From: an uncultured SAR116 cluster alpha proteobacterium
GTDB taxonomy: Bacteria; Pseudomonadota; Alphaproteobacteria; Puniceispirillales; Marisalimonadaceae
Reading direction: 5' to 3'
DNA length: 64,000 nt
Assembly: GCA_902623995.1 (NCBI GenBank)
Contig: CACNWE010000001.1
Coordinates: 124,001-188,000, forward strand
The notes under the pieces are model-generated. The model was not told the DNA's origin. It was given only the letters and a program-made list of their open reading frames with translations, and did no database searches. This document shows, one piece after another, positions 13,942-19,594 of the stretch. How positions within the stretch are numbered: the stretch's first letter is position 1; every line of letters starts with the position of its first letter. A program made the position numbers and the translations under genes.

Positions 13942-14403
13942 TTATATTTTATTAATTTTTTTCTCTTCTGAAACATAATTCTTAAAGTTTTCAAAAAATG
14001 TTTTAGATAATTTTTTTGCAGTGCTTAAAATCAAACGACTTCCAAGTTGAGCTATTTTACCTTTAACTTCGCTTTTTGCGATATATTTTAATATAGTCTC
14101 GTTGCCATCTTCGACTAACTCAACATCCGCACCACCTTTAGCAAATCCAGCAACACCTCCATCCCCTTCTCCACTGAGAGAATATTTAGTAGGGCCAGAA
14201 GATAAATCTAGAGTGACCTTTCCTTTAAATTTTGCCTTGATAGGACCAATTTTTAAAATCACTTTTGCTGACAAAGTTCTGTCTTCGGCTTCTAATAATT
14301 CTTCACATCCAGGAATACATTTTTGCAAAACTTTAAGATCGTTCAAGCAATCATAAACGTATTCTAATTTTGCTGGTATTCTGACTTCATCATTAAGTTC
14401 CAT
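13942..14403 (-). CDS. coxG: CoxG-like SRPBCC protein
   Basis: A 153-residue single-domain START/Bet v1-like protein of the carbon monoxide dehydrogenase subunit G family. The start MELNDEVRIPAKLEYVYDCLND, IPGCEEL, and GGAGFAKGGADVELVED-like glycine stretch (here GDGGVAGFAKGGADV) are typical. The C-terminal membrane-anchoring hydrophobic tail found in some CoxG proteins is absent. CoxG recruits or anchors molybdenum hydroxylases to the membrane; no such enzyme is nearby, although an XdhC/MocA pair lies at 29.6-31.2 kb. Its start lies only 11 bases from the outer copy of the tRNA-Leu repeat, so before island insertion this gene probably sat directly behind tRNA-Leu. Confidence 0.8.
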   Translation of the reverse strand: MELNDEVRIPAKLEYVYDCLNDLKVLQKCIPGCEELLEAEDRTLSAKVILKIGPIKAKFKGKVTLDLSSGPTKYSLSGEGDGGVAGFAKGGADVELVEDGNETILKYIAKSEVKGKIAQLGSRLILSTAKKLSKTFFENFKNYVSEEKKINKI

Positions 14404-14413
14404 TTTTAAATTT

Positions 14414-14490
14414 CTACCTACATTTAATTAAGAATTATGGTAGGAATATCCGGAATCGAACCGGGAAGCCTTGCGGCACTCGTTTTTGAG
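14414..14490 (-). repeat. island end: displaced 3' fragment of tRNA-Leu
   Basis: This 77-bp sequence repeats 18795-18871 with 7 substitutions and no gaps. The tRNA part is 14438-14490 and covers anticodon loop, variable arm, T arm, acceptor 3' strand and CCA; the remaining 24 bases match the DNA just behind the real tRNA. Two substitutions fall in the acceptor and T-stem positions and one in the anticodon stem, as expected of a copy no longer under selection. There is no 5' half, so it cannot be a working tRNA. Confidence 0.85.
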
Positions 14491-15069
14491 TTACTTGATG
14501 ACACTTATGCATAATCAACATATTTAAGTAATTTTAGGTATTCACTTAAATTCAAATTAATAGTTATTCTTTATTGTCAACACAGTCAAGCCAGTTTAGT
14601 TTATTTTCGTACTATTTTTCGTAGCATTTACTTAACAGTTATGTAGAGTAAGTTGACGGCACTCACCATTATAGCTTTAGTGGTATTGATAATTACTTTG
14701 TATTTTCTATTTAATTGCTCTATTCACATTGGACTGCCACGCTATTTTGTTGATAAATAGGTGTCAACATAAGAATGACACACCAAGATTTACTATTAAG
14801 AGAATTTCAAATATCCAATAAATTTCGAGATTCAAGCTGTAAAGCGATTGTAGTAAAATGCTATAATTGAATTTGTATTTTCGATGTATGAGTAATTTCG
14901 ATTTATGCTGTTTTATTAAACATTAATTAAAATGATTAACTAATTTAGCTTAATTTTTTTGCATCTCGAGCTTTCAGTGAAAAAAAACTGGATAAAATTT
15001 GTGTTATATAATGCAAAACAATACCGTCCAATACGTTTAACGTTATCTAAAGATATAGGAGTATGTAAT
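14491..15069. other. 579-base stretch without a convincing gene (island left arm)
   Basis: No open frame here has a recognisable product. The ORF of 31 codons at 14774 and the upstream extension of the binding protein (from 14959) look fortuitous. A TATAAT hexamer at 14862-14867 could be the -10 box of the transporter operon, but no matching -35 hexamer is seen at normal spacing. The position, between the left island repeat and the cargo, is where an integrase would usually lie; no trace of one was recognised. Confidence 0.5.
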
Positions 15070-15924
15070 ATGAAATCAAATAAATTTTCACGCCGTCAAG
15101 TTTTAGTCACTGCTGCATCGGGTTTGGCAGTATCAATGTTGCCACCAAGTTTAGCTCGCGCAGCAGGTAAAACTTTGTCTGATGTGAAAGCATCGGGAGT
15201 ATTGCAAATCGGATGTGAAGCAACCTATCCGCCTTTTACTTTTCGGGACTCGGGTAAGATAGTGGGCTATGATGTCGACTTAGCAGCTTTGATGTGTTCT
15301 TCATTGGGGGTTAAGCCAGAATTTATTGATACGCAATGGTCAGGTGTAATTCCAGCGCTCTACGCTGGAAGGTTCGATGTGATTATGTCGTCTATGAGTT
15401 ACCGTAAAGAGCGTTTAAAAAAGGTTGCTTTTTCTATTCCTTATGCTGAAGCAAGCCAAGCTATGCTTATTCGAGCAGATGATGCATCAAAAATCATGTC
15501 AGTGAAGGATCTTTCAGGCAAAGTACTTGGCGTTAAACTTGGATCACCTGGTGAAATGATGAAGCCTGCTCTTGAAAAAGAAATTGCAGCCGCCAAAGGA
15601 AAGGGTTTTTCTGATGTAAAAATTTATGATGATCATCCTTCTGCTTACCTTGCGCTCAGCCAAGGAACGGTTGATGGTGTGCTTAACACTCTGCCAACAT
15701 TAGGAAAAGTGATGAAGGACCGTCCAGGTGCATATGCATTGGTACGCCCGGTAGGAAAGTTGAATTGGGCAGGGATAGCAGCGCGTAAAGAAGATACAGA
15801 AATTGTCAAATGGATGGATACTGAACTCACGAGGCTGAAAGATAGCGGTGAGATTTACGCATTGCAAGAAAAGTGGTTTGGTTTCAAAATGGAACTGTCA
15901 GACACAATTCCGTCGTTTGCGTGA
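15070..15924 (+). CDS. polar amino acid-type ABC transporter, substrate-binding protein
   Basis: A 284-residue periplasmic family 3 solute-binding protein. The ATG at 15070 is chosen because it has a GGAG ribosome site and opens directly into a twin-arginine type signal (FSRRQVLVTAASG) cleaved near ARA-AGK; an in-frame ATG 37 codons upstream would bury that signal. Family features follow: GVLQIGCEATYPPFTFRD, GYDVDLAALM, DTQWSGVIPALYAGRFDVIMS, MSYRKERLKKVAFSIPY. Proteins of this type bind polar amino acids, opines and related nitrogen compounds. It is the first gene of an operon with its permease, ATPase and an amidohydrolase, so its ligand is probably the substrate, or a relative of the substrate, of that enzyme. 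Codon use is visibly less AT-rich than outside the island. Confidence 0.9.
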   Translation: MKSNKFSRRQVLVTAASGLAVSMLPPSLARAAGKTLSDVKASGVLQIGCEATYPPFTFRDSGKIVGYDVDLAALMCSSLGVKPEFIDTQWSGVIPALYAGRFDVIMSSMSYRKERLKKVAFSIPYAEASQAMLIRADDASKIMSVKDLSGKVLGVKLGSPGEMMKPALEKEIAAAKGKGFSDVKIYDDHPSAYLALSQGTVDGVLNTLPTLGKVMKDRPGAYALVRPVGKLNWAGIAARKEDTEIVKWMDTELTRLKDSGEIYALQEKWFGFKMELSDTIPSFA

Positions 15925-15935
15925 TTACTTAACTT

Positions 15936-15968
15936 ACCTTGTCCCTTTTATAGCCTTGGGGACAAGGT
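15936..15968 (+). promoter_or_regulatory. intercistronic hairpin between binding protein and permease genes
   Basis: ACCTTGTCCC at 15936-15945 pairs perfectly with 15959-15968 around a 13-base loop. The following bases are A-rich, not a U tract, so it is not a standard terminator. Hairpins in this position often protect the binding-protein part of the message from 3' decay and raise its level above that of the membrane parts; that role is inferred here. Confidence 0.6.
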
Positions 15969-15983
15969 TAAAAAGGTACTTAT

Positions 15984-16637
15984 ATGACTATTGATTGGGG
16001 CATTATATTTAAAAGCATTCCACTCCTTGGTCATGGTGTAGTAGTAACGTTGCAAGTCTCAGCACTAGCATCTGTCTTGGGTTTGATGCTCGGTGTAGTT
16101 TTGGGATTGTGCTCGCTGTCTCATAGCAGACCCCTTCGTTGGATTGTTGCTGGTTATGTTGATTTTATACGCGGTACACCATTGCTGATCCAAATTTTTT
16201 TAGTTTTTTTTGCACTCCCTGCGCTTGGTGTTCGATTTGATGAATTTTGGGCCGGTGTTGTTGCGCTTTCTTTGAACTCTGCAGCATTCGTAGCTGAAGT
16301 TGTACGAGGTGGCGTTGGGTCTATTGAGCGGGGCCAGTCCGAAGCAGCAACTGCCATAGGCATGCGACATAGGCAAATCCTAATATATATCTTACTTCCA
16401 CAAGCTTATAGACAAATGGTTCCGCCACTTACAAACGAGCTGATAAGCTTAGTAAAAAATTCATCTTTACTCTCGGTAATATCAGTTTATGAACTAACAA
16501 GAGCAGGTCAGGCAATAATCTCAGTGCACTTTGTGCCATTTGAGATTTATACTCTGCTGGCGCTGTATTATTATGTTCTTATTAAAGTATTAAGCTGGTT
16601 GTCAAGTCGACTTGAGCGGAGGCTTCCAACATGGTAA
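15984..16637 (+). CDS. polar amino acid-type ABC transporter permease
   Basis: A 217-residue inner-membrane permease of the HisM/GlnP family with about five membrane helices. The EAA loop that contacts the ATPase is visible as [14 protein letters not shown] followed by [13 protein letters not shown] near residues 118-145, and [16 protein letters not shown] is the conserved N-terminal motif. Only one permease is present, so the transporter is probably a homodimer of this protein with two ATPases. It overlaps the ATPase gene by 7 bases. It belongs to the island operon. Confidence 0.92.
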
Positions 16638-17377
16638 ATCCGGTAATCCAGGTGCAAGACCTTAGCAAAAGCTTTGGGGATAATTCTGTGTTACGTCGTG
16701 TATCGATGGATGTAGCCACTGGTGAAACTGTTGTAATTATTGGAGCATCTGGTTCAGGTAAGACCACCTTTCTACGCTGCCTGAATAGATTGGAGGAGCC
16801 TGGCGCTGGTACTATACGGTTAGATGGAAACCCAGTGGTGAATAGTGGTTCTGAAAAACAAATCGCAGACCAACGCAGTCAATTTGGCTTTGTTTTCCAA
16901 AGGTTCAATCTATTTCCTCATTTTTCTGCCCTAGATAATGTAGCTATCGGGCCTGAAAAGGTTCGTGGTATGTCTAAGTCGGATGCAAGAGCTCTCGCTG
17001 CAGCTGAACTTAAACGGGTTCATATGTCTGATCACGCAATGAAGCGTCCAGTTCAGCTATCCGGCGGGCAACAGCAAAGAGTAGCAATAGCACGAGCACT
17101 AGCAATGAAGCCTAGAGTTATGCTGTTTGATGAACCAACTTCGGCACTGGATCCTGAACTGGTTCAAGAGGTACTAGATGTGATGAAGGAATTAGCAAAC
17201 GGAGGTATGACTATGGTAGTAGTTACCCATGAAATGAATTTTGCGCGTGAAGTTGCAGACCGTGTAATTTATATGGAGAATGGTAGGATTGCTGAGGAGG
17301 GTCCACCAGAGATTCTGTTCAGAGAACCAAAATCGCCTGGTGCACAGCGGTTTCTTAGGCATTTGACCCATGAGTGA
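16631..17377 (+). CDS. polar amino acid-type ABC transporter ATPase
   Basis: A 248-residue cytoplasmic ATPase of the GlnQ/HisP family that powers the adjoining permease. Walker A is GASGSGKTT near residues 38-46, the Q loop is in [14 protein letters not shown], the signature is LSGGQQQR, Walker B is [12 protein letters not shown] and the switch His is in VVTHEMNFA. Length and motif spacing are normal. It overlaps the permease by 7 bases and the amidohydrolase by 8 bases, so the three are probably translationally coupled. Confidence 0.94.
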
Positions 17378-18743
17378 AGCTCTTGCAACACCAGATATGA
17401 TCGTAGCAGGAGGCACTCTGCTTACATCAGATCCCAATAGACCTTACATCCAAGAAGGTTGGGTAGTTATAGATAATGGCCGAATACAGTCAATACAAGA
17501 CAAAAAGCCGGACAGATTTCACCCGGCAACAAAAGTAATTGATGCGAAGGGGTTTGTCATTACACCTGGGTTTGTTAACGTCCACACCCATGCTATCCTT
17601 AGTATGGTTCGCGGAGTGGCGGAAGATATGGGGTTTGCGCCGGCTTATACCATTGGTGTGCCTCATGGACATGATCCAAGCCCAGAAGAGGCATATGCCA
17701 TGGCTCAGCTGGGCGGTTTAGAAGCACTCCTCTTCGGATCAACGATAATCAACGATACCTTCACACACCAGAATATTGCACTTCCAGCGATGGCTGAAAC
17801 AGGGATCAGAGCATGGGGCTGTGGAAGAATCCACGATGTTGATTTTACACGCGTACATCTCGGTGAGTGGACCTATAACACAGAAATAGGAGAACATACT
17901 CTTAGAGAAGCCTTGGAACTGATTGAAGAATACCACGATCCAGTTAGTCTACGCACTGGGGTGGTTCTAGCACCTCACGCGCCAGACACTTGTTCGCCAG
18001 ATCTATTGCGCCAAGTACGTAATATGCGCGACCACAAAGGATTGCGGATCAACACTCATGTTTCACAAAGTCAAGTTGAAGTTGATTTCATTCGAGAACG
18101 TGACAAGATGAGCCCCCCTGAATTATTGGAAGATGTCGGACTGCTAGATGATCGTTTAATTGGTGCGCATTGTATACACGTCTCAAAAACAGATATTGAG
18201 CGACTTGGACGCGCAGGCGCACATTTGGCTCATATAGCTAAGGGCAATCAAACACACGGACAGGTAGCGCCGACCAGTGCTCTGCGTCGCGCGGGTATGA
18301 ATTTGGCACTTTCAACCGACAACATGCATGCTGATATGGTAGAATTGATGAGATGGGCTTTAGCTTCAGGTCGTTTGCAAGATGGTAAGATTACCGACGA
18401 TTGGCAGCCTACCAATGTATTTGAGGCTGCTACAATTGGAGGTGCGCGGGCGCTTGGTCTGGAAGACGAGGTTGGTTCTTTAACAGTTGGTAAACGTGCT
18501 GATTTAGTAATGTTTGACTTTAGGCGCCCACATTTGAGACCGCTTACAAACGTGTTGGGAACACTTGTACACACAGGACAGGGTCGAGACGTAGATACAG
18601 TCATTGTGGAGGGCGAGGTTGTTGTTTCTGGTGGAGAGCCACTACGAGTAGACAAATCAGCTGTTCTTGAAGCTGCAGAAACTGCAGCCGCTGCGCTATG
18701 GCGCCGAGCGCGATCAGAAGAGTTAGCGTTTTCAAAAAGTTAA
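17370..18743 (+). CDS. amidohydrolase of the ATZ/TRZ (cytosine deaminase-like) family
   Basis: A 457-residue metal-dependent hydrolase. A beta-sandwich part at both ends (residues 1-65 and about 385-440) encloses the barrel. Metal ligands expected from the family are present: His72 and His74 in NVHTHA, His230 in NTHVSQ, His267 in GAHCIH and Asp317 in STDN. The residue three after His230, which is the catalytic Glu (HxxE) in most deaminases and dechlorinases of this family, is Gln233. Substrates in the family include N-heterocycles, methylthioadenosine and guanine; the exact one is unknown. The 8-base overlap with the transporter ATPase suggests that the imported compound is its substrate. The gene is in the high-G+C island and ends 51 bases before the right island repeat. 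Confidence 0.86.
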
Positions 18744-18794
18744 ATTTTAAGAATGTTGGTTGAATTCAAAACTACGAATAACCTTCTAAACCCC

Positions 18795-18871
18795 CTACCT
18801 ACATTTATTTATGAAGTTTGGTAGGGATACCCGGAATCGAACCGGGAAGCCTTGCGGCACTGGTTTTTGAG
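18795..18871 (-). repeat. island end inside tRNA-Leu (right repeat)
   Basis: The intact partner of the 77-bp repeat at 14414-14490. On the tRNA strand it starts with CTCAAAAA at the anticodon loop and continues through the CCA and 24 bases of 3' flank. The start in the anticodon loop is a classical crossover site for tyrosine integrases that target tRNA genes. Confidence 0.85.
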
Positions 18872-18903
18872 ACCAGCGTGTTTACCTATTTCACCATATC
18901 CCC
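18819..18903 (-). tRNA. tRNA-Leu (anticodon CAA)
   Basis: An 85-base class II tRNA read from the minus strand. The acceptor stem GGGGATA pairs with TATCCCT (one G-U pair at the first position), followed by discriminator A and an encoded CCA. The anticodon stem CTGGT/ACCAG holds the loop CTCAAAA, giving anticodon CAA for UUG codons. A long variable arm with the GCC/GGC stem and a T arm with GTTCGAATC are present, as expected of tRNA-Leu. The gene is the insertion target of the island to its left. Confidence 0.95.
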
Positions 18904-18994: not shown

Positions 18995-19594
18995 ATGATA
19001 TTCTTAAGTATTAAAACTAAAATTGATCTTTTAATTGAAAAAGCAAAGTATAATGCGAAAAAATCCTTAGCTGAAAAAATTCTTGGCTTTGTTTCTTCAA
19101 TAGAATCAATAATTTTTCCTATTCCAGTTGATCCATTTCTTGCAGGATTGACATTAGCTGCCCCTAAGAAAGTTTTAAAATTTGCATTATTTTGTACGAT
19201 TGGCTCTGTTATCGGAGGTGTTGTAGGATGGTTGCTGGGTTATTTTATAGGACCTTCAATTGAAAATATATTATTGAACATTCCTTGGTTTACCGAAGAA
19301 AAATTTATGTCAGTAAAGTCAGCCTATAATGAAAATGGTATGCTAATAATTTTTTTAGGAGCATTTACACCTCTTCCATACAAAATCATTACCATTACAA
19401 GTGGTATGGCTGGAATAAACATTATTGGGTTTGTATTAATGTCTCTTGTAGGGAGGGGTATAAGATTTTTTATGGTTGCATATTTAACAAAATATTTTGG
19501 GATGCCAGCTTTATTATTTTTACAGAGACATTTTCTTTTATCTTCTAGTATATTAGGAATAGCAATTATTGTATTTTCGATTTATGTTTTTTAA
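18995..19594 (+). CDS. DedA/YqaA-like membrane protein
   Basis: A 199-residue inner-membrane protein of the VTT/SNARE-associated family. The re-entrant motif region is seen as SSIESIIFPIPVDPFLAGL near residues 35-53, GGVVGWLLGYFIG near 75-87, and FLGAFTPLPYKIITITSGMAG at about 121-141, the last with the FTP-P pattern common in YqaA. Related proteins move or scramble undecaprenyl phosphate or other lipids; the substrate here is not known. It is followed without a gap by dsbB and then by coq7, so the three form one transcript. The start is an ATG 92 bases from the tRNA. Confidence 0.8.
   Translation: MIFLSIKTKIDLLIEKAKYNAKKSLAEKILGFVSSIESIIFPIPVDPFLAGLTLAAPKKVLKFALFCTIGSVIGGVVGWLLGYFIGPSIENILLNIPWFTEEKFMSVKSAYNENGMLIIFLGAFTPLPYKIITITSGMAGINIIGFVLMSLVGRGIRFFMVAYLTKYFGMPALLFLQRHFLLSSSILGIAIIVFSIYVF

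Follow-up and report, generated by a model that had tools for sequence, protein, structure and literature searches.

We identified a four-gene operon at tRNA-Leu(CAA) in a SAR116 genome as one slot of a multi-slot tandem array. The two-sided attachment module of this array is also that of an integrase-bearing element found at the same site in relatives. Very probably, this island is an integrase-free attL/attR cassette that was inserted into an accretion array by an integrase that related satellite-like elements encode. Its site-specific insertion and its transfer are well supported. The island lies in a 64-kb stretch of DNA, here called the window, whose assembly (G000) has a size of 2.08 Mb and is 89% complete.

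Attachment cores and the operon between them

The island is bounded by two ungapped copies of a 77-nt direct repeat, at 14414–14490 and 18795–18871, that agree at 70 of 77 positions (91%), a core identity that mixes origins since the 24-base part outside the tRNA is host-derived at the distal side. All remaining direct repeats in the surrounding 5.8-kb stretch are 22–23 nt long. The second copy was matched at E = 3.3e-24 in the window's own assembly, with no third copy among the matches listed. A single tRNA was detected in the window using ARAGORN, namely the intact tRNA-Leu(CAA) at 18819–18903 on the minus strand, which is the target of the insertion and was restored at the proximal junction. 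The repeat reaches as far as 18871, where the anticodon loop begins (the classic crossover position of tyrosine integrases), and includes the CCA (18819–18821) as well as 24 bases past it. The tRNA-proximal core (18795–18871) therefore consists of the tRNA 3' half plus 24 bp, and the tRNA-distal core (14414–14490) represents the original 3' half of the tRNA, since displaced, and is mismatched at 3 of the 53 compared tRNA bases. The polarity suggested by the core alignments would make the proximal core the one that came from the element. These results agree with a sequence-only reading of the window, which had described the repeat with its seven mismatches and its boundaries in the tRNA. A tandem tRNA array, the other source of the repeat that this reading had considered, is ruled out by the single tRNA in the window and by the distal copy, which is half a tRNA gene.

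The operon has a G+C content of 0.453, compared to 0.314 in the part of the window that lies beyond the island, where the maximum among 263 equal-sized windows was 0.352; the internal DNA is indeed richer in G+C, as had been noted. Its four genes are all on the plus strand and encode a family-3 extracellular solute-binding protein of 284 aa (15070–15924; PF00497, 6.8e-40), an ABC permease of the amino-acid/cystine type of 217 aa (15984–16637; PF00528, 7.9e-24; its NCBIfam matches are below their curated cut-offs), an ABC ATPase of 248 aa (16631–17377; PF00005, 3.5e-36), and an amidohydrolase of 457 aa (17370–18743; PF01979, 9.4e-50). The latter belongs to the atrazine chlorohydrolase/8-oxoguanine deaminase-like group, and its closest solved chain is 4v1x (E 7.8e-44). 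The 5' non-coding region from 14641 to 15069 (plus strand) is common only to other copies of the same operon and is probably the promoter region. The island is flanked by coxG (13942–14403, minus strand; PF06240) and, behind the tRNA, by a gene for a VTT-domain protein (18995–19594, plus strand; PF09335), a neighbor that is conserved in relatives. No integration or transfer genes were found among the four metabolic genes of the island, and a tblastn search across the slot (E ≤ 0.01) left no trace of the related integrase, in line with the four genes and missing integrase first reported.

Outside SAR116, the nearest amidohydrolases are those of Rhodobacteraceae (82–83% identity), one of which (L126) has the whole operon in the same gene order at 0.597 G+C. 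No tRNA that could mark a donor array was found in the seven Rhodobacteraceae loci scanned (80 fetched).

A survey of the 23 genus genomes with an intact tRNA-Leu core (22 plus G062) revealed an empty site with one core copy in seven of them. The genomes surveyed are drafts, being either single-cell genomes or MAGs, and several arrays consequently run off contig ends. The tRNA is adjoined by coxG in four of the empty sites (G014, G019, G036, and G030), which is the arrangement predicted for removal of the island, and by coxM in the other three (G010, G013, and G035). Slots of the array family or the operon occupy the site in 14 genomes, while two (G007 and G029) have other inserts, for which no distal core was found. 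The single repeat copy at the tRNA-Leu(CAA)/coxG junction had been proposed as the proof of insertion, and the seven empty sites support an insertion into tRNA-Leu by site-specific recombination. The opposite outcome, with all relatives carrying the four genes at this place, was not observed, as the operon is present in 10 of 40 genus genomes. Other cargo at the same site, which had been proposed as something to look for, was found as slots with different genes.

Slots, arms, and integrases of the tandem array

Of the slots seen, 23 are closed, that is, bounded by two cores (22 of them in the genus and one in G077, which belongs to another genus of the same family). Using tblastn (E ≤ 0.01), an intact integrase was detected in one closed slot (G023), a truncated one in another (G006), and integrase scraps in four (two slots of G025, one of G034, and one of G077, the last copy with stop codons). 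The 17 closed slots with no trace include eight with the operon and nine with other cargo. Besides its eight closed slots, the operon is found in one slot cut by the contig start (G006, in which the contig begins inside the operon) and in one that lost its distal core and P' arm (G022). Among the cargo of other slots are an amidase together with ABC parts of the branched-chain type, a PnrA-like binding protein accompanied by a 2OG oxygenase and by hydantoinase A/B, and TPR-methyltransferase proteins. PADLOC gave mostly weak matches for eight cargo proteins, with MkoC matched at 3.5e-62 by one of them, which comes from G006 and is 1103 aa in length.

The first ~130–157 bp of the 579 bp that separate the distal core from the first gene recur next to tRNA fragments with other cargo, as detected by blastn. 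This distal (P') arm, at 14491–14640, carries TTCGTA motifs and is common to slots with different cargo in 18 other genomes. On the other side, a ~52-bp stretch forms the proximal (P) arm (18744–18794), part of which was also matched by blastn just behind the G023 integrase gene; the P arm of the window keeps TACGAATAA and is without the TTTCGTACC of the G023 integrase slot. The P' arm was matched 28 times, in 19 of the 40 genus genomes (the window's assembly among them), the match in G026 covering only 58 bases. It should be noted that the profile used for the arms derives from member sequences, and its E-values on these members are therefore by construction; the arms of G062, G032, and G077 are outside the profile, and the blastn search with the arm of the window only is independent of it. 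The G024 arm is weak by profile (E 2e-4), yet it was aligned by blastn. No arm was found in a 2.8-kb closed slot of G006, and the arms of the operon slots are conserved no better than the rest of their own non-coding region and thus give no sign of selection on them.

TTCGTA occurs 35 times in 26 P' arms (in 20 of the 26) versus 0.76 expected at the slot-interior rate or 1.34 in a Markov control (maximum 6 of 500), and TACGAA occurs 12 times in 24 P arms versus 0.29 expected, but these counts are not independent, as the arms share descent. Both attL and attR appear to be retained in the window, where the cores agree at 70 of 77 positions and each is accompanied by an arm.

An intact tyrosine integrase (PF00589, 3e-24 and 6.8e-25) is encoded beside the same tRNA in G023 and G017, the slot of the latter being cut by the contig end. 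The integrase-bearing elements of G023 and G006 look satellite-like, about 10–12 kb, with replication-type genes; no conjugation genes were identified among the 10 + 10 element proteins searched, some of which overlap. Scans of viral contigs for close relatives, which would miss distant ones, detected none for the integrase or the amidohydrolase. The 89% complete assembly of the window likewise encodes no integrase of the array's family and no close relative of it. In G077, where the flank proteins are 47–69% identical to those of the window, the same site combines a core of 96% identity (55 bp) with a P' arm and a broken integrase of 90% identity (134 aa). A more distant integrase (50–52% identical) is found beside tRNA-Trp in G070, with partial arm similarity.

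In all eight arrays with at least two tRNA fragments, the farthest fragment has more mismatches than the nearest over the 53 tRNA bases, although indels inflate these ungapped counts and the G006 core is truncated. This order fits a stacking in which the newest slot is nearest to the tRNA. It had been suggested that the island was either a very small satellite or a trimmed remnant; since it is one slot of an array that shares its module with an integrase-bearing element, each of these descriptions is incomplete, and the idea of trimming stands to the extent that the integrase scraps in four other slots show that this also happens.

We propose that a Rhodobacteraceae-type operon (ABC importer plus amidohydrolase) would lie between an attR-like junction, composed of the distal core and the P' arm (14414–14640), and an attL-like junction, composed of the P arm and the core (18744–18871). 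A tyrosine integrase from the satellite-like elements at the same tRNA-Leu(CAA) would recognize these cores and arms and insert cassettes at the anticodon loop, the tRNA being rebuilt each time. Successive insertions would then stack beside the tRNA and push older slots away. Neither a circular form nor an excision or transfer event was observed, and no vehicle between cells was found.

The most distal position of the operon is as expected of an old insertion. The cores adjoining the operon are more decayed than the others in several genomes.

Transfer between species and route of mobilization

The operon is found in the ten genomes at 95–98% amino acid identity, and its divergence at four-fold sites ranges from 0.08 to 0.14 in all 45 pairs. 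For six neighboring genes, it ranges from 0.12 to 0.60 in the 36 comparable pairs (nine pairs with G021 have no flank data), and the operon value is below the flank value in 36/36, which indicates that the operon moved between species. The difference is largest for G022, with 0.09–0.13 for the operon and 0.55–0.60 for the flank against the eight others with flank data. In addition, the flank tree groups G000, G002, G003, G012, and G024 with a support of 100, and the island data reject this clade (AU p = 0.0057). Vertical inheritance as the sole history of the operon is ruled out by the four-fold distances and the AU test. With homologous flanks at a shared site, homologous recombination via the flanking genes or the tRNA could in principle have spread the operon. 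This is very unlikely, as the VTT gene of G022 is only 73% identical (amino acids) right beside an operon at 95–96%, and this value, together with the flank divergence of G022, indicates that no long flanking tract came along.

A second cassette provides a further case. It is found in G003 as a 4.5-kb closed slot with no integrase and is 98.787% identical over 3,627 bp to a copy in G021, which is cut by the contig start, such that the integrase-free reading covers the G003 copy only. In its 459-aa gene, 1 of 151 four-fold sites differs between the two genomes, versus 24 of 43 in coxG and 17 of 31 in ybaK (~0.55), which are chromosomal neighbors of the array. The operon slots of these same genomes are 92.1% identical, and thus the slots have separate histories. 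From these comparisons, integrase-free cassettes of the array family evidently still spread between species.

These data also bear on a simpler history, in which a complete integrase-bearing element with fixed cargo entered a single time, its integrase disappeared, and descent was vertical from then on, with no movement in an integrase-free form. Such a history would account for the integrase scraps and the truncated gene described above, for the operon being farthest from the tRNA in each of the nine genomes with a readable slot order, for the decayed distal cores, and for the window's assembly being without an integrase. It is nevertheless improbable, given the departure of the operon distances from the flank, the rejected flank clade, and the near-identical cassette in two distant species, and as the sole explanation for the family it is already hard to hold.

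The integrase family at the site would have moved the window's cassette, acting either in trans or on a tandem neighbor that was later lost. Movement only in tandem with an integrase-bearing neighbor is possible, if somewhat doubtful: tandems of integrase-free and integrase-bearing slots exist, for example in G023 and G006, and this route is described for CIMEs in the excerpted account (PMC5704250). However, six genomes (G000, G002, G012, G022, G024, and G063) have the operon as their only slot and no integrase, and the route in cis needs a separate loss each time. Mobilization in trans therefore seems more likely. Mobility may have been lost in the window's copy, given 7 mismatches in 77 between its cores and the absence of any close relative of the integrase from its assembly.

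Relation to known tRNA-associated islands

Judging from the excerpted descriptions, islands of this kind are already known and are covered by CIMEs, Dehalococcoides ssrA islands, additive flexible genomic islands, and tycheposons. Within this kind, the integrase-free cassettes with shared arms and their evident recent transfer stand out. The titles and abstract openings of the literature on SAR116 genomic islands, flexible genome, and mobile elements announce no account of the array. There is a somewhat less than even chance that these cassettes represent a tRNA-anchored, integron-like form of sharing, in which cargo with a two-armed module would be moved in trans by one integrase family; the integrase would circulate across SAR116 genera on satellite-like elements, and nutrient-uptake/hydrolase operons would be traded slot by slot. 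If true, this would explain the swapping of nutrient operons in ocean bacteria that are small and streamlined and have few mobile elements to be seen, and most array slots would need no integrase of their own. The core and its two arms would then be a defined module for finding cassettes by sequence alone, and the integrase and an integrase-free cassette would form a concrete pair for studying mobilization in trans.

CIMEs are integrase-free, keep attL and attR, and stack in tandem at one gene in ICE/IME accretion arrays, according to the excerpted text (PMC5704250). The island of the window is likewise integrase-free with att sites, in a tandem array at one gene, but the related full elements look satellite-like, with no conjugation genes identified among the proteins searched, and the cargo is a nutrient-uptake operon. 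The Dehalococcoides ssrA islands, as outlined in the part of the source consulted (PMC3146451), are in tandem, split by RNA-gene 3'-end repeats, and carry niche genes, with integration modules in 16 and none in 15. The SAR116 array is also tandem, with RNA-gene 3' repeats and slots with and without an integration module, but it appears to depend on a tyrosine integrase at tRNA-Leu instead of a serine recombinase at tmRNA.

The additive flexible genomic islands of Alteromonas and Ca. Actinomarinales are summarized as tRNA-targeted cassettes gained or lost between strains, with tRNA-fragment repeats (PMC4119200, PMC7771536). The SAR116 cassettes are similarly located at a tRNA, present or absent among relatives, and separated by tRNA-fragment repeats, but they have a shared arm on integrase-free cassettes that the excerpted descriptions do not mention. 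Finally, tycheposons are presented, in the excerpts, as marine elements that are bordered by tRNAs, encode a tyrosine recombinase, and carry nitrogen and nutrient cargo (PMC10872708, PMC11389934). The island of the window is also tRNA-bordered marine cargo with nutrient genes; it differs in being without a recombinase, which is present in related slots.

Cox genes beside the array

The CO dehydrogenase gene coxL was detected in 15 of the 40 genomes of the genus (E <= 1e-200), and at this threshold the search of these 40 genomes gave no match in the window's own assembly, which retains coxG (window 13942-14403). The array of tandem slots at tRNA-Leu(CAA) is neighboured by coxM in genomes with coxMSL and by coxG in genomes without coxMSL. 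A tandem coxG pair adjoins the array in G017 (locus L024, 11740-12881), as well as in G063 (L103) and G019 (L039).

Cargo of the slots

Slots bearing an integrase or integrase scraps encode a 1103-aa protein resembling MkoC of Mokosh defence in G006 (L028 6400-9711) and G025 (L029 7808-11119); the two proteins are 97% identical, with a four-fold divergence of 0.16. The G021 slot (L026 3632-10454) carries hydantoinase B/A together with 2OG oxygenase and PnrA-like genes. Of these two gene sets, only the first pair, hydantoinase B/A, is found in the G062 slot (L206 206-4903), and only the second, 2OG oxygenase with PnrA-like genes, in a G006 slot (L028 3444-6264) whose core is truncated and whose arm is absent.

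The P' arm and a second tRNA

The integrase-free operon is present in G022, where the distal core and the adjacent P' arm have been lost (L114 15354-15676). In G070, a genome compared across genera, tRNA-Trp is adjoined by an integrase 50-52% related to the array's family, and the locus (L213) shows partial likeness to the P' arm, as if a single arm family might serve different tRNA targets.
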